Positions 28,467-35,976 of a stretch of 43,641 nt of DNA are shown piece after piece; position 1 is the stretch's first letter; each line of letters starts with the position of its first letter. The stretch is from Cyanobacteria bacterium FACHB-502 (GTDB lineage Bacteria > Cyanobacteriota > Cyanobacteriia > Elainellales > Elainellaceae). A program made the translations under genes and the position numbers. The stretch covers positions 1-43,641 of the forward strand of contig JACJNZ010000066.1 of NCBI GenBank assembly GCA_014695325.1, in the 5' to 3' direction. A model generated the notes under the pieces. That model did not search any database. It was given only the letters and a program-made list of their open reading frames with translations, and was not told the origin of the DNA.

Positions 28467-29534
28467 TTAAAGCTCCTGACAGACAAATTCGGTTTCGATT
28501 CCCGCCTCGTCCTCGGTTTGACTCGGTTCAGAAGCTTTGATTTCGTCAAGCATTTGCCACACTGTTGGCAGCAGCTCATCCAGTCCGCTTCCCGAAACGG
28601 CAGAAATGATGAAGACCGGACAGCCGCTTCGATCGTGTAATTCGGCTGCGAGGTCGTTGGGTAGCGTGCTATCGGGCGGCAGAGCGTCGATTTTGTTAAC
28701 GGCAAGAATCTGGGGACGATCGGGTAACCCGCGATCGTATGCCTCAAGCTCAGCTTGGATCGTTTCGTAGGCAGCGATCGGGTCTTCAGAAGTCACATCG
28801 ATCAGGTGCAGCAGCAGCCGGGTTCGTTCAATGTGGCGCAGAAAGTCGTGTCCCAGTCCGGCTCCCTGGTGTGCCCCTTCGATCAGTCCGGGAATGTCGG
28901 CAAAAACAGTTCCGTCTCCGGTGGGCTTTCGCACCACGCCGAGGTTAGGGATCAGGGTGGTAAACGGATAATCGGCGATTTTGGGACGGGCAGCAGACAG
29001 GGCAGAAATCAGGGTCGATTTGCCTGCATTGGGTAAGCCAATAATTCCTACTTCTGCCAGCAGTTTCAGCTCCAGCCGAATGGCGCGTTCTTCTCCGGGA
29101 AGTCCGGGCAGAGCATTTTCGGGGGCGCGGTTGCGGTTGCTGAGAAAGTGACGGTTGCCGAGCCCGCCTTTGCCGCCTTGCGCGACGAGCAGGGTTTGTC
29201 CGGGCGTGACCAGATCTCCAACAATCTCATCGGTTTCGATGTCGTAAACAACTGTGCCGCAAGGCACTTCAATGTAAAGATCGTCTGCTGAAGCTCCGGT
29301 CATGTTTTTGGGACCGCCGCGCTGACCGTTTTTTGCCTTAAAAATGCGGGCGTACTGAAAGTCCAGCAGGGTTTGCAGATGCTCAACTGCTTTCAGATAA
29401 ACCGATCCACCTGCACCGCCATTGCCGCCCGCAGGACCGCCCGCAGGCACATATTTTTCGCGCCGGAAGGCAACCATGCCATCTCCGCCTGAGCCTGACT
29501 GAACTTCAATTTCTGCCTGATCGATAAACTGCAT
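28467..29534 (-). CDS. obgE: GTPase ObgE/CgtA
   Basis: A 355-residue conserved GTPase needed for 50S subunit maturation and stress signalling. The Obg glycine-rich domain starts [20 protein letters not shown] and contains [17 protein letters not shown]. The G domain has P-loop GLPNAGKS at 166-173, YPFTT switch, [10 protein letters not shown] and NKID motifs. I chose the ATG at 29534, giving the family start MQFID; the frame runs 10 codons further up. The C-terminal region after the G domain is short and acidic. It lies 119 bp downstream of the phosphorylase-kinase-like gene on the same strand. Confidence 0.95.
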
Positions 29535-29653
29535 GATCTGATTTGCTGGCAATAGTGATGACAATGGAATGATGCGATCGAATGCCGCGCTCCTTCTTTA
29601 GATCGTAGGCGATCGATTTTCAGTCGGGGAGGATTTGGCAAAATTCGATTCTC

Positions 29654-32600
29654 TCAGGCTGAGATCGGAGCGCGAGGCATCGGGGCTTGTCCCAGTTCGG
29701 TCAGGAAGCGCAGTGCTTTCGCAATATATTTCGCGCAAACATAGGGCGAGGTTTCATAGAACGATCGCCAAGCAACTCCTTTTTGCTGATCGTAGGTATC
29801 CGCAGCATCAGGGTGATGATCCAGCCAGGCGAGTCGGACGGCGTGACCGATCAGCACATCCAGCACAATGTATTCCTCGATCTGGAGGTCTGGATTGCGA
29901 TCGGCGATGGCAGCTAGCTCCATCAGTGCCTCGATGTTGACCTGACGATATTCGGAAGCCTGAATGTTGTTCAGCAGATGCTCGACCCGCAGCGCAAAGT
30001 TTTTCTCGCCTGGAGTCATTTCTGCCAGCAGCACTTCACTATCGAGCCGATTGCGGCGATCGAGCTTGTCGCCAATCACTACGCCTTTGCAGTGCCGCAT
30101 CACCTGCCACACGCTGGGATAAAACCCAGTGGGAACGCGATTCAGGGCCCCGTCTCGCTGCCGCTGCTTCCACCAGTCGATCGACTGTGCCGGAGCTTCT
30201 ACATTTGCCTCAGCGGAAATGACCCATTCGATTTCCTGGGTTTGGCGAACGTGCAGCGATTCTTGCTGAAATAGCGACTGGTTCAGCGTGTTGTAGCCTG
30301 CGAGAACCTGCATCAGACGCAGCTTAATCTCAAACGGACTGAGGCGCATCAGCCGCTCGTATGCTTCGTCTTGCGTGATTTGCTGCTCGCGTGCCAGTTC
30401 GGTGGTAATCAGCAGAATCAGATAGCTCACCCGCAGTGTCAGTAATCCTTTAAAAAGCTGGGGATCGGTCTTGATCAGCACACTGAGGTAGATTAGGATT
30501 TCCTGGGTGAGCGGACGCTCGCGCACGTCGCTGCTGCAAAAGTGCTGAATCTTGTCCATGATGTCCGTCGCAGGGAGGGGACTGGTGATTAGCGAAGCTT
30601 CGGTATAGGCCTTGCCCACCGAGATTTGCTTGCCCCGTACCAGGATATCGGTGACCGCATCCGAGAGGCTGACATCAACTTTGTGCAGCAGCCCGGCAAC
30701 GCGCCGAATGACTGCCCAGAGCTGAATCTGACTGGCTTTGCTGTAAACCTCATCCAACAGCATCGCGATCGTCACAGGCTGACCCGAACCCCCCAATCCT
30801 GTGTCAAAGGTGAGATCACACAAATTGCTGAGATTTTCCAGCAAATCAATCTGCTCATACAGGTTCACCGACTGCTGCAGCAAATCAAGCAATCGTGGAA
30901 TATTGGTTTCATAAGCCAGCAAAAATTCCTGCGTATTGCTCAGGGGCGCATTGCGATCGGGATAGAACGTTAGGTAATACTGTGCCGGAGCTGCATTTTG
31001 CACTGATGCCTCAGCAAACTCAAAGTCGTGCAGAAAATCAACCCGCTCCATGCCTGCGGTCAGCATCATTTGTTTTAAGTCGCTGAGCTTGACCGGAACG
31101 CCGTTGCAGCTTCCTTCCTGTAATTCCCGCAGCAGCTTGAGTAGGGGAGAAGATTCAGCAACCCCGTCGGGCGATCCCTGCGCTCCCTCGGTCTGGAACA
31201 TGGCGTGGGTCAGCAGCAGTGTCATCGTCGGTCTACCGAGCTGGTGCCAGTGTCGCTGAATGTAAGCCAGTTCGCCTTTGATCTGCGCCACCAGAAAGTG
31301 ATAGTCCAGCGTTAAGTAAAACTGCTGCGGATCGAGGAAGGCAGGCAGGAAGACGATCGTTTCCCCTCGAACCTTGAAAATCCGCGAAGTCGTCATGCTG
31401 CGAAGCCGCCGAACCGGGCGACCCGTGAGCTTCAGCTTGTCATTGCGTCCGATCTGGGAATAGACACGAGACAGTTCCTCTGCCCGTCTGACTTGAATGG
31501 GGGCAACTTGTGCTGGAGTTTGGGTGGCGATCCCATAGGTGGCTAGCTCTGCCTGAAGCGTTTCGTCTTCGGTCAGCAGCGCAATTTGCACCAGGGGTTT
31601 CTGACGCTTGCCCGACTGCCGATGCCGTCCGAGGGGGTCAATATCGCCGATCGCAAGCAGCCCTTCCCGAATCATCTGCCCCAGCAAATAGAGGCTTTGT
31701 GCCCAGACCAGCGGCACGTTTTCATTCGGCAAACGAGTTTGACTGTGGGGAGTCGATCGCTCTGCTTCGATTTTGTCCGCAGGCACGTAATAAAGCTCTG
31801 GCAACAGCTTAAAACCGTTTTGCTCGATCAGCAGCGGCTGAAGTTTCTGGTCATAGCGTTCCGCCTGTTCCCGATCGTCGCGAAACAGCGCGTCCAGCAG
31901 GAGATAGGTGAAAAAGAGGGGCCACTCGCACTCTATATGCTCAAACTGCTTCAGCTCTTTCGGCTCGTAGTGCAGCCGAGTCACATCTTCAATAACAGTT
32001 TGGTGTCCATCGCGCAGGAACCGTTTACAGCCATAGTTGCCTTGCAGCTTAGAAATCACGTTGTCGCGGGTGCGATCGACCAGAGTTCTGTCTTCGATCG
32101 CAAATGCTGGAAAGCCGATCACGCTCAGCAGTGCCCCATCCACTTCCTTGGAAGCCGATTCTCTGGGCAGCAGTGAGTCCAGCGTAATTCGTGCCCTGGC
32201 GATCTCATCCGGCAAGACGTGAATCACCGAAGCCTGACTGCCACGCACACCAAACAGATCGAGTCCATTAATGGCTTCCAGGGCTGCCTTTGCCATGCCG
32301 ATTGAGCTGGCGTTGAGTTCGGGCTTGCCGTGGTTCATTTTGTTGCCGCGTTCCCAGATGCCATAGTCCGGGGTACGGTAGGTGCGACCGATGTAATACA
32401 CCAGATTTTGAATGAAATTTACTTCATCAATCGTGAAGACAATTTGCAGCCCGGAAACCGTCATTTGCGCCAGCATCAGCAAATAGAGCGACGTGGCATC
32501 CAACTGAAGATGTCCCCAGCCGTCATCCACCACCACCACATCTGCAGTCTGGGTGTCGTATTTGGCGTGCAGCGCGTCAAGCAACCCCTGCGATACTTTG

Positions 32601-32944
32601 AATTTTTCGACTTTGTGCGCCTGCCGCATCATGGCAAACAGCAAGCCGCGCATCAGTTTCACGACGCTGTATTCTAGCTCATACGCCCTGCCACGATCGT
32701 CATTCACCTTGCGGTATGCCAGTCCCAGCCCCCAGACCGCCAGAATGCTGTAAACGTTGTCGCGCACCCAGGCATCGGTATAGTTGCCATGAGCAGTAAT
32801 GGCAGTGCTAGCAGGCAAAAGTCCAGTCACCGGATGCTGGCGATCGAGAATAACGGCGCAAATCTCTTGATAATAGGCATCCAGGCGACTTTGGAGCGCA
32901 AGATCATCAGTCAGATGAGCAGAGGTAGTCAGATGAGCAGCCAT
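29654..32944 (-). CDS. Phosphorylase kinase alpha/beta-like protein (GH15-related)
   Basis: A 1096-residue protein. The N-terminal half is a glucoamylase-like (GH15) alpha/alpha barrel: NYTDAWVRDNVYSILAVWGL, then DYGIWERGNKMNHGKPELNA and ECEWPLFFTYLLLDALF. These blocks, together with SASKEVDGALLSVIGFPAFA and LQGNYGCKRFLRDG, closely follow the regulatory alpha and beta subunits of animal phosphorylase kinase as I remember them. The match continues to the C-terminus (LNRVPTGFYPSVWQVMRHC, then EMTPGEKNFALRVEHLLNNI). No catalytic gamma kinase gene is in the window. In bacteria such proteins are usually annotated as GH15; a role in glycogen metabolism or sensing is plausible but unproven. Confidence 0.88.
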   Translation of the reverse strand: MAAHLTTSAHLTDDLALQSRLDAYYQEICAVILDRQHPVTGLLPASTAITAHGNYTDAWVRDNVYSILAVWGLGLAYRKVNDDRGRAYELEYSVVKLMRGLLFAMMRQAHKVEKFKVSQGLLDALHAKYDTQTADVVVVDDGWGHLQLDATSLYLLMLAQMTVSGLQIVFTIDEVNFIQNLVYYIGRTYRTPDYGIWERGNKMNHGKPELNASSIGMAKAALEAINGLDLFGVRGSQASVIHVLPDEIARARITLDSLLPRESASKEVDGALLSVIGFPAFAIEDRTLVDRTRDNVISKLQGNYGCKRFLRDGHQTVIEDVTRLHYEPKELKQFEHIECEWPLFFTYLLLDALFRDDREQAERYDQKLQPLLIEQNGFKLLPELYYVPADKIEAERSTPHSQTRLPNENVPLVWAQSLYLLGQMIREGLLAIGDIDPLGRHRQSGKRQKPLVQIALLTEDETLQAELATYGIATQTPAQVAPIQVRRAEELSRVYSQIGRNDKLKLTGRPVRRLRSMTTSRIFKVRGETIVFLPAFLDPQQFYLTLDYHFLVAQIKGELAYIQRHWHQLGRPTMTLLLTHAMFQTEGAQGSPDGVAESSPLLKLLRELQEGSCNGVPVKLSDLKQMMLTAGMERVDFLHDFEFAEASVQNAAPAQYYLTFYPDRNAPLSNTQEFLLAYETNIPRLLDLLQQSVNLYEQIDLLENLSNLCDLTFDTGLGGSGQPVTIAMLLDEVYSKASQIQLWAVIRRVAGLLHKVDVSLSDAVTDILVRGKQISVGKAYTEASLITSPLPATDIMDKIQHFCSSDVRERPLTQEILIYLSVLIKTDPQLFKGLLTLRVSYLILLITTELAREQQITQDEAYERLMRLSPFEIKLRLMQVLAGYNTLNQSLFQQESLHVRQTQEIEWVISAEANVEAPAQSIDWWKQRQRDGALNRVPTGFYPSVWQVMRHCKGVVIGDKLDRRNRLDSEVLLAEMTPGEKNFALRVEHLLNNIQASEYRQVNIEALMELAAIADRNPDLQIEEYIVLDVLIGHAVRLAWLDHHPDAADTYDQQKGVAWRSFYETSPYVCAKYIAKALRFLTELGQAPMPRAPISA

Positions 32945-33360: not shown

Positions 33361-34104
33361 ATGCCTGACCTGCTCCAAGCTCCCAGACGATCGACCGTGT
33401 TAGGGTTACCAATCCACTTGGTTTCCGACTATCCGGGCTGGCTACTGTCCCATGCAAAACATCATTGCGGCGTTCATGTCGTGACGCTGAATGCAGAAAT
33501 GGCAATGCAGGCAGAGAAAACGCCCGACCTGGCAGCGGTGATCCGCAAAGCAGAACTTGTGATTCCCGATGGCTCTGGAGTCGTCCTTTATCTGCGGCTA
33601 CGGGGTATGAAAGTGCAGCGATGTCCTGGCATCGAGCTAGCAGAAAAATTGATCAATCAAATGCCGCTGCTAGGGTCAGAAGGCACAGTTTTCTTTTACG
33701 GCGGTGCGCCCGGAGTGGCCCAAGCCGCAGCCGATCGCCTTCAACAGCGCATTCCCGAACTTAAGGTCGTCGGCGTTCAGCACGGATATTTATCGGCAGA
33801 AGAACGATCGCAGCTCAACGAAACCCTCCAACAGCTTCAGCCGCGCCTGATTCTTGTGGGCTTGGGCGTCCCCCGGCAGGAACTCTGGATCGCTGAGCAT
33901 CGCTATCTTTGCCCTGATTCGATCTGGATCGGCGTCGGTGGCAGTTTTGATATCTGGTCTGGCAAAAAGACCCGCGCTCCAAGATGGCTGGCAAATAACC
34001 ATTTGGAGTGGGTCTATCGGCTATATCAGGAACCCTGGCGATGGCGACGGATGCTGGCTCTGCCAAAATTTGCCCTGCGTGCCCTGCTCGATCCGCAACG
34101 GTAA
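33361..34104 (+). CDS. WecB/TagA/CpsF-family glycosyltransferase (GT26)
   Basis: A 247-residue enzyme of the family that moves N-acetylmannosamine(-uronate) or related sugars onto a lipid-linked acceptor in wall or capsule polymer synthesis. It has VTLNAEMAMQAEKTPDLAAV, the PDGSGVVLYLRLRG motif with the conserved Asp, FFYGGAPGVAQAAADRL and VGLGVPRQELWI, all in the family order. IGVGGSFDIWSGKKTRAPRW closes the core. The acceptor and donor are not known. It is transcribed alone; dispersed repeat copies 4 and 5 follow its stop. Confidence 0.92.
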   Translation: MPDLLQAPRRSTVLGLPIHLVSDYPGWLLSHAKHHCGVHVVTLNAEMAMQAEKTPDLAAVIRKAELVIPDGSGVVLYLRLRGMKVQRCPGIELAEKLINQMPLLGSEGTVFFYGGAPGVAQAAADRLQQRIPELKVVGVQHGYLSAEERSQLNETLQQLQPRLILVGLGVPRQELWIAEHRYLCPDSIWIGVGGSFDIWSGKKTRAPRWLANNHLEWVYRLYQEPWRWRRMLALPKFALRALLDPQR

Positions 34105-34392: not shown

Positions 34393-35976
34393 TTAAACCG
34401 CAGTCAGTTCCTTGGGTTCCTTCGGTTCTTTAGAGTCGATCGGGGCAGTGAGAGCTTCCTCTAATGGAGCCGCGCCCAAACGCTGTTCCAGAATATTCAT
34501 TACTTCCCGGCCAAAGTCGTTTGGGTTTTGTTGCCATGCCTGGAGGCAGACCTCGCCAAAGAAAGAGCCGAGCGGTTCTGGATTCCAAAGCAGCTTTTTA
34601 GCAACCCAGGGGAAGTAGATGGCAAGCGGATTGTAGCCTCGCTTCAAAATATTGTTCTTGAAGGCATACTCTTCCAGGTGCGTGTGGGGCTGGAGTCCGA
34701 TGAAGAAGATAGCAGGCTCCACCTTATCTGCACCAAAGATGCGCTCCATCTCCCGGTGATAAGCGATCGTCTGACGAATGGTGTCAAACGTCTCATCAAT
34801 GACATTAAACGAATAGTTAATCGAGACCAGGTCATTAAATCCGGCAGCTTTGAGATCGCGGCAGTTTTGCAGCACCGTCCGCAGGTTATAGCCCATCCGC
34901 ATTTTGCGAACCAGCTCTTGGGAACCGCTCGTGATGCCGATCTCAAAATAATTCATCCCGGTTTTCACCATCAGGTCGCAGAGTTCCGGGGTTAGGTTGT
35001 CTGCCCGAATGTACGCCGCCCAGTGAATATCCGTCATGCCTGCGTCGAGGATTTTTTGCAGGAGCTCGATCGCATCATTCATAAACCGCCGTGCCGGAAT
35101 AAACTGAGCATCGGTAAACCAGAAATTGCGAACGCCGCGATCGTAGAGCTGGCGCATTTCCTTCACGACTTCGTCTGCCGGATTGATTCGCACCTGCTTA
35201 CCTTCGACCACGGTGTAAACGCAGTAGCAGCAGTTGTGGGGACAGCCGCGCTTGGTCTGCACCCCAATATAAAAGTCGCCTTCTTGCAGATAGTAGTCAA
35301 AATCCGACCAGATTTCCGCAATGTAGTCGTAGTTGCAGGCAGTTTTCTCTAGGGGGGCAGGCTGTTCGTGAATGAGGCGATCGCGAGGCTGGGTTTCACC
35401 CACAATGTAGCAGCGTTCGTCTGCAATATCCTGTCCATGCAGCAGCTTTTCGAGCAGAGCTTCTCCCTCCCCAACCGAGATGATCGTCCCTTTCGGCAGC
35501 ACTTTGCCCAACTGCTCATAAAATACGCTGACCGCACCGCCCCCAACGACCGATCGTGCTTCCGGGCAATACTGACGGGCGCGCTTCAGCCCTCGCTGAA
35601 TCAGATTCTGGTTGCGCCACAGCTCAGTCAGGTAGGATGACACCATCCGCAGTCCACCAATCGCCCCTCTCAGTTTGGTGAATGGATTGCGGGCGTAGTA
35701 GAACTCAAACGCGTTTTGCAGCGGGTTACCGCCTCGTCCGCCGACCGGAGCGTAAATCTGAATATCGCGCCAGGAGAATACCAGCAGCGTTGGCTTGAAC
35801 TCGTCAATGCAGCGATCGAGCGCAGCTCCAAAATCTAGCGGCGGAATTGTTCCCAGATCGAAAATGCGCTGAGAAACGTCTGGAAATAGCTTGTGAACAT
35901 GATCTGCCAGATAAACAACTCCGATCGGGAAGATGGGGTTGCAGGGCAGGCGCACGTAGAGAATGCGATCGTTCAT
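34393..35976 (-). CDS. B12-binding-type radical SAM protein
   Basis: A 527-residue protein. The 4Fe-4S cluster motif CPHNCCYC gives C245, C249 and C252 (CxxxCxxC). The N-terminal 200 residues have the form of a cobalamin-binding-like domain (YVRLPCNPIFPIGVVYLADH, then SVVGGGAVSVFYEQL and ISVGEGEALLEKLL), although the usual DxHxxG motif is not seen. GITSGSQELVRKMRMGYNLR is a typical radical SAM strand-5 region. Homologues are widespread in cyanobacteria, and I recall one such family named for photosystem II high-light acclimation, but I cannot confirm membership. It stands alone. The C-terminus repeats KEP (DSKEPKEPKEL). Confidence 0.85.
   Translation of the reverse strand: MNDRILYVRLPCNPIFPIGVVYLADHVHKLFPDVSQRIFDLGTIPPLDFGAALDRCIDEFKPTLLVFSWRDIQIYAPVGGRGGNPLQNAFEFYYARNPFTKLRGAIGGLRMVSSYLTELWRNQNLIQRGLKRARQYCPEARSVVGGGAVSVFYEQLGKVLPKGTIISVGEGEALLEKLLHGQDIADERCYIVGETQPRDRLIHEQPAPLEKTACNYDYIAEIWSDFDYYLQEGDFYIGVQTKRGCPHNCCYCVYTVVEGKQVRINPADEVVKEMRQLYDRGVRNFWFTDAQFIPARRFMNDAIELLQKILDAGMTDIHWAAYIRADNLTPELCDLMVKTGMNYFEIGITSGSQELVRKMRMGYNLRTVLQNCRDLKAAGFNDLVSINYSFNVIDETFDTIRQTIAYHREMERIFGADKVEPAIFFIGLQPHTHLEEYAFKNNILKRGYNPLAIYFPWVAKKLLWNPEPLGSFFGEVCLQAWQQNPNDFGREVMNILEQRLGAAPLEEALTAPIDSKEPKEPKELTAV

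Follow-up and report, generated by a model that had tools for sequence, protein, structure and literature searches.

In this study, we report a cyanobacterial protein that is homologous over its full length to the alpha and beta subunits of phosphorylase kinase (PhK), in which the residues of the alpha-type catalytic site and of the beta-type ADP site are conserved together in one chain, and from which the tested kinase-side features are absent. The gene lies in the window, that is, the whole stretch of 43,641 nucleotides that was analysed. Our tentative proposal, held with somewhat less than even confidence, is that the protein, a member of the PhK alpha/beta family, would work inside the cell as a GH15 alpha-glucosidase under nucleotide control, resembling the form that preceded the duplication of the two subunits, with a predicted hydrolase activity and a predicted capacity to bind ADP.

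Work on PhK was at the heart of how regulation by phosphorylation came to be discovered. What the glucoamylase-like domains of its two big subunits do 'still requires further investigation', in the words of the available text of a cryo-EM study of the human enzyme (PMC10978961), and the foremost puzzle among these domains is an alpha site that is apparently intact yet silent. A single-chain bacterial relative that carries the residues of both sites, and not the tested kinase contacts, is a simple system for studying their original role, and the presence of a homologue in Synechococcus elongatus puts the question within reach of experiments on a single purified protein and a single knock-out. 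The GH15 and KPBB_C domains are already catalogued in Pfam. Among the literature matches listed, in a search outside which most subscription journals lay, there was no paper on bacterial PhK alpha/beta proteins and no discussion of the two-site combination; the term 'phosphorylase kinase' is also absent from 300,000 of the 445,374 characters of a 2024 review of prokaryotic alpha-glucan enzymes (PMC11046441).

The features of the gene and its product are as follows.

29654..32944, minus strand: gene for a PhK alpha/beta-type protein of 1096 amino acids (open frame, Pfam, phmmer)
31625..32887, minus strand: GH15-like domain D1, residues about 20-440 (Pfam GH15; 5z3a-5z3e aligned at model residues 13-430)
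within 31625..32887, minus strand: D1 site residues, comprising catalytic E198 and E383 and sugar-site D57/W59/R61/D62
32195..32386, minus strand: stretch of residues 187-250 with R187, Y189, R190 and R250, counterparts of the ADP-phosphate residues R211, Y213, R214 and R274 of human PhK beta
29687..30391, minus strand: KPBB_C domain, the C-terminal region of PhK alpha/beta (Pfam; fold match to 8xyb_A)

The gene is a single open frame with an ATG start and 0 internal stops. Pfam assigned residues 19-840 of its product to GH15 (E 2.5e-93) and residues 852-1086 to KPBB_C, the phosphorylase b kinase C-terminal domain (E 6e-107). Both sequence blocks quoted in an earlier, sequence-only reading of this DNA were recovered from the translation, GIWERG beginning at residue 195 and LNRVPTGFYPSVWQV lying within the KPBB_C region.

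That reading had recognised a full-length homologue of the PhK regulatory subunits, and both the sequence searches and the predicted fold bear this out. By Pfam, phmmer and profile search, GH15 is followed by KPBB_C and the whole length is collinear with PhK alpha and beta; the alignment reaches the C-terminal domain instead of being confined to the GH15 barrel, the outcome that would have refuted the reading. Using phmmer against solved structures, human PhK alpha was matched at E 1.4e-249 (query residues 20-638, 684-884 and 922-1016) and human PhK beta at E 2.5e-203 (13-882 and 923-1081), with a single further match up to E 1, at E 0.33. At E 0.01, a profile built from 30 cyanobacterial rows found PhK alpha and beta alone. 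Sequence identity over D1-D2 is 53.1% between the window protein and human alpha (606 residues) and 44.4% between it and human beta (579 residues), as against 43.1% between human alpha and beta themselves (571 residues). An AlphaFold2 model of the protein (mean pLDDT 77.9), with low confidence in three loops of the active site (127-144, the E198-bearing 195-203, and 304-326), was superimposed on PhK alpha (8z5r_A) with Z 37.8 over 803 residues at rmsd 3.4, and on 8jfl_B, taken as beta, with Z 36.1 over 939 residues at rmsd 11.3. GH15 glycosidases were matched at D1 only (Z about 21.7), and the predicted fold resembles solved PhK alpha and beta outside D1 too, model residues 921-1087 matching 8xyb_A with Z 18.2 over 158 residues at rmsd 3.1.

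The family has a patchy distribution in Cyanobacteria. KPBB_C was found over cut-off in 71 of 292 genomes sampled evenly from the phylum, the window's genome included, all 71 being the genome itself or members of the same family or the same class; at E 0.001 the count was 72, the extra match (G090) being weak, outside the class and interrupted by stops. Any GH15 match was present in 95 of the 292. KPBB_C was found in 47 of 60 relatives sampled (own genome included), and among 14 control genomes Synechococcus elongatus alone matched it. In the host genome (6.6 Mb, 99.99% complete), KPBB_C and GH15 were each matched once, in the window gene in both cases. A mobile origin was rejected, with 0 matches in the plasmid and phage collections (tblastn) and no relative in two viral-contig scans, a limited pattern search.

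Two sets of sequences were used for counting conservation. The first, of 119 rows, was drawn from 142 loci after leaving out L001, the 20 partial loci L083-L102, L120 and L129, all below 1000 amino acids; in the search of relatives, the best 80 of 323 were kept. Since close relatives are over-represented in this set, where 7 of the 118 rows besides the window fall below 50% identity to the window protein, the second set gives the fairer count. It comprises every over-cut-off copy, 72 in all, from the 71 genomes, and includes a copy in G215 split between two frames and one (G101) whose tblastn alignment shows a stop. The break in the G215 gene (L129), near query residue 410, is a frameshift or an assembly error. 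G197 was the sole genome with two copies (L106 and L107). Both are full-length, at 65% and 71% identity with the window protein, and retain the catalytic and the ADP residues; here a natural duplication has left the two sites together. Two genomes of 1.7-1.8 Mb (G107 and G114), with the same family code (f19) as G139 and others, had no match, and larger f19 members carry a diverged copy; the absence could be a loss accompanying genome reduction.

The available text of PMC10978961 gives Glu185 and Glu371 as the catalytic pair of human alpha and states that some catalytic residues are missing from beta. The alpha pair aligns with E198 and E383 of the window protein; a lead that placed the GH15 base in a GDIDP stretch was dropped, as Glu371 of that study maps to E383 in LLPEL. 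D57, W59, R61, D62, E198 and E383 are identical in all 72 copies from the 71 over-cut-off genomes of the even sample. W59, R61, D62 and E198 are common to 8/8 plain GH15 proteins, while at the position of E383 an aligned Glu was found in two rows of about 800 amino acids and the other six were gapped. Invariance is not rare in the GH15 domain (145 of 596 positions over residues 20-615 in the 72-copy survey without G215), and it is therefore which positions are invariant that counts. At 13 site residues of our own choosing, alpha keeps 13 and beta six, the general acid among them. The catalytic glutamates being intact in 72/72 copies, the suggestion of the sequence-only reading that the protein is a still active hydrolase is a possible one, beside the sugar sensor that it also named.

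In human PhK beta, ADP is bound with Arg211, Tyr213, Arg214 and Arg274 around its diphosphate (PMC10978961, available text). On the phosphate side of the pocket, which is the side that the comparison covers, these four align with R187, Y189, R190 and R250 of the window protein, and all four are identical in each of the 72 copies from 71 genomes. Human alpha has Ala, Tyr, Lys and His at the same positions, and none of 8 plain GH15 outgroup rows has the four together. The 119 cyanobacterial rows have 164 columns conserved to at least 98%. Human alpha and beta both share 107 of these; 36 are retained in alpha but not in beta, 11 in beta but not in alpha, and 10 in neither. The alpha-only columns include D57, W59, R61, W143, D149, W341 and E383. 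Three of the four ADP residues fall among the 11 beta-only columns (hypergeometric P 9e-4, from a test with one human alpha and one human beta, run after the ADP residues had been mapped). This split is the pattern expected if a bifunctional ancestor had divided its two sites between alpha and beta, and as a pattern of aligned residues it is suggestive of such an ancestor.

From the conserved residues and the likeness to PhK we infer a working scheme that covers hydrolase activity, substrate, ligand, switching, self-association and a role in glycogen use. D1 most likely hydrolyses an alpha-glucan or a malto-oligosaccharide, E198 acting as the general acid and E383 as the general base, and the D2-D5 part would serve as scaffold and switch. 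The second pocket, like that of PhK beta, most likely binds ADP or a metabolite containing it, for example ADP-glucose, the donor for bacterial glycogen synthesis. Nucleotide binding would tilt D2-D5 against D1, so that activity might track energy charge or glycogen flux. The protein would probably self-associate through a helix of D1 whose animal counterpart makes the pseudo-twofold contact between alpha and beta, given as alpha 68-94 in the available text of PMC10978961. The commonest cyanobacterial residue is found at 19 of the 27 positions of this helix in alpha and at 19/27 in beta; with 7/27 positions conserved to at least 98% among the cyanobacterial rows, the helix points weakly to a homodimer.

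The main argument against a hydrolase comes from human PhK: its alpha subunit carries the same catalytic pair, yet the enzyme is inactive on maltose, isomaltose and glycogen, as reported in the available text of PMC10978961. The same observation speaks for a catalytically silent glucan sensor or scaffold, in which the GH15 pocket would hold an alpha-glucan and the second pocket a nucleotide, and which would control another enzyme, such as glycogen phosphorylase, by contact. The KPBB_C region is, moreover, fairly well conserved in the 119 rows (34 of 235 positions invariant, beside 112/421 in D1 and 6/200 in residues 441-640), as such a function would have it. However, the acid, the base and the sugar-site residues are strict in all 72 copies, beyond the needs of simple binding, and no partner gene is conserved in general, the most frequent group of neighbours occurring at 27 of 120 loci (L010 left out of the neighbour count). 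We regard a silent sensor as rather unlikely.

The surroundings of the gene bear on the substrate. A gene for a WecG/TagA/CpsF glycosyltransferase was observed at 33361-34104 (plus strand), upstream of the window gene and on the opposite strand. Among the 113 loci with a gene upstream, 21 have such a gene in the first or second upstream position on the opposite strand; three of these loci (L118, L119 and L130) belong to the far, 45%-identity group. This placement would suit a hydrolase of the same mechanism that acts on another substrate than glycogen, such as a cell-surface oligosaccharide or a compatible solute. The linkage was, however, not found at the other 92 of the 113 loci, and the nearest solved homologues are PhK subunits, followed by GH15 glycosidases, so that we consider this substrate assignment improbable. 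The search for a conserved operon or an adjoining glycogen gene gave none among the neighbour representatives scanned with Pfam (4 from the window, plus 10 and 9), for which reason the substrate of the nucleotide-regulated alpha-glucosidase that we prefer is a guess.

Other neighbours were MgtE, a carbamoyltransferase, ExbB/ExbD, DUF1232, a PD-(D/E)XK protein, a histidine kinase and an amine oxidoreductase, and those of the far group were an oxidoreductase, a CNNM/CorC-type protein, a histidine kinase and a queuine tRNA-ribosyltransferase; a link to glycogen is suggested by none of them. The adjacency to obgE pointed out in the sequence-only reading is real (28467-29564, minus strand, the same as that of the window gene, and 89 bases past it from the listed obgE start) and carries no meaning, since an obgE-group gene lies within six genes at 3 of 120 loci, the window included; the linkage was rejected as incidental. 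A radical SAM protein of 527 amino acids, with a weak, below-cut-off B12-binding match, is encoded at 34393-35976 (minus strand). Elsewhere in the host genome there is a clear glycogen phosphorylase, besides which a second, weaker phosphorylase-family match (L174, contig C32 of G000; 90 bits, 885-amino-acid frame) was observed.

The kinase side of PhK was considered at the farnesylation motif and at two contacts. A CaaX motif is absent, with Cys at -4 in 0 of 119 rows. In the available text of PMC10978961, alpha Lys588 and Tyr593 contact the N-lobe of the gamma kinase, Lys588 pairing with the kinase; the position of Lys588 is Glu in 100/119 rows, and that of Tyr593 is variable, with Tyr in 2/119. 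These features agree with the earlier remark that the animal kinase cascade is lacking, and an animal-type kinase regulator was rejected on them. That the protein regulates a bacterial Ser/Thr kinase as one of its subunits, in the animal manner, is thus very improbable despite 35 Pkinase-domain matches in the host genome (34 over cut-off, general Pkinase search) and a conserved KPBB_C region, which holds D5, since neither the CaaX Cys nor the two contacts are kept, none of the four window neighbours scanned with Pfam is a kinase (one histidine-kinase group does lie near 10 of 120 loci, and such a gene also near L103), and the first 80 residues of the GlgP of the host genome do not match a pattern for the PhK target site. 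Given the 35 matches, the protein may have an unrelated kinase partner.

Human alpha and beta were recovered as sisters both with a plain-GH15 outgroup (support 98/96, 39 rows) and without an outgroup (95/78, 31 rows), with a warning from the tree program that two long branches meet at their node. In the rooted tree, branches starred at 100/100 and 98/98 put the human pair within the cyanobacteria, apart from the far group f19 and from L141 and L112; support for the exact neighbours of the pair is weak and the outgroup sits on a very long branch. The AU test did not reject the cyanobacteria as one clade (p-AU 0.129), nor the cyanobacteria plus alpha (0.288) or plus beta (0.264). As rooting and neighbours are insecure and these alternative topologies stand, we claim no donor, direction or date.

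Neither the root nor the duplication has a secure place in the trees, and the term 'ancestral', which the sequence-only reading had offered, rests here on the site pattern, the union of alpha catalytic and beta ADP residues in one chain, which favours it. It is conceivable, though we would sooner doubt than assert it, that the cyanobacterial proteins keep the state before the split, one chain being both an active alpha-glucosidase and a sensor of ADP or ADP-glucose; after the duplication, alpha would have kept the catalytic pocket, which then fell silent, and beta the nucleotide pocket, with the kinase added later. If this were true, the control of glycogen by PhK would derive from a nucleotide-gated glucan hydrolase.

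Among known systems, plain GH15 enzymes are the more distant. The GH15 glycosidase 5z3a-5z3e and fungal glucoamylases have the fold of D1 in common with the window protein (Z about 21.7 for 5z3a and about 17 for the fungal enzymes), and eight plain GH15 rows also have the W-x-R-D and WE motifs; unlike the window protein, however, plain GH15 glycosidases and glucoamylases lack the D2-D5 part, and the PhK-type set of ADP residues is found in 0/8 of the rows. Human PhK beta (8jfk_B) is collinear with the window protein and has all four ADP-phosphate residues. It keeps the general acid (E222), whereas K81, K83, Q85 and K408 stand at the positions of D57, W59, R61 and E383, and it bears a CaaX tail (PMC10978961, available text) that the cyanobacterial rows do not have. 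Human PhK alpha of skeletal muscle (8jfk, 8z5r) is collinear from residue 20, and the GH15 acid/base pair is intact in both proteins. By phmmer, alpha has 145 residues between the first two matched stretches, compared with 45 in the window protein, and 86 at the next junction, compared with 37; by profile search, it has 76 unmatched residues at each of two junctions. Alpha retains one of the four ADP-phosphate residues, whereas the cyanobacterial protein has all four.
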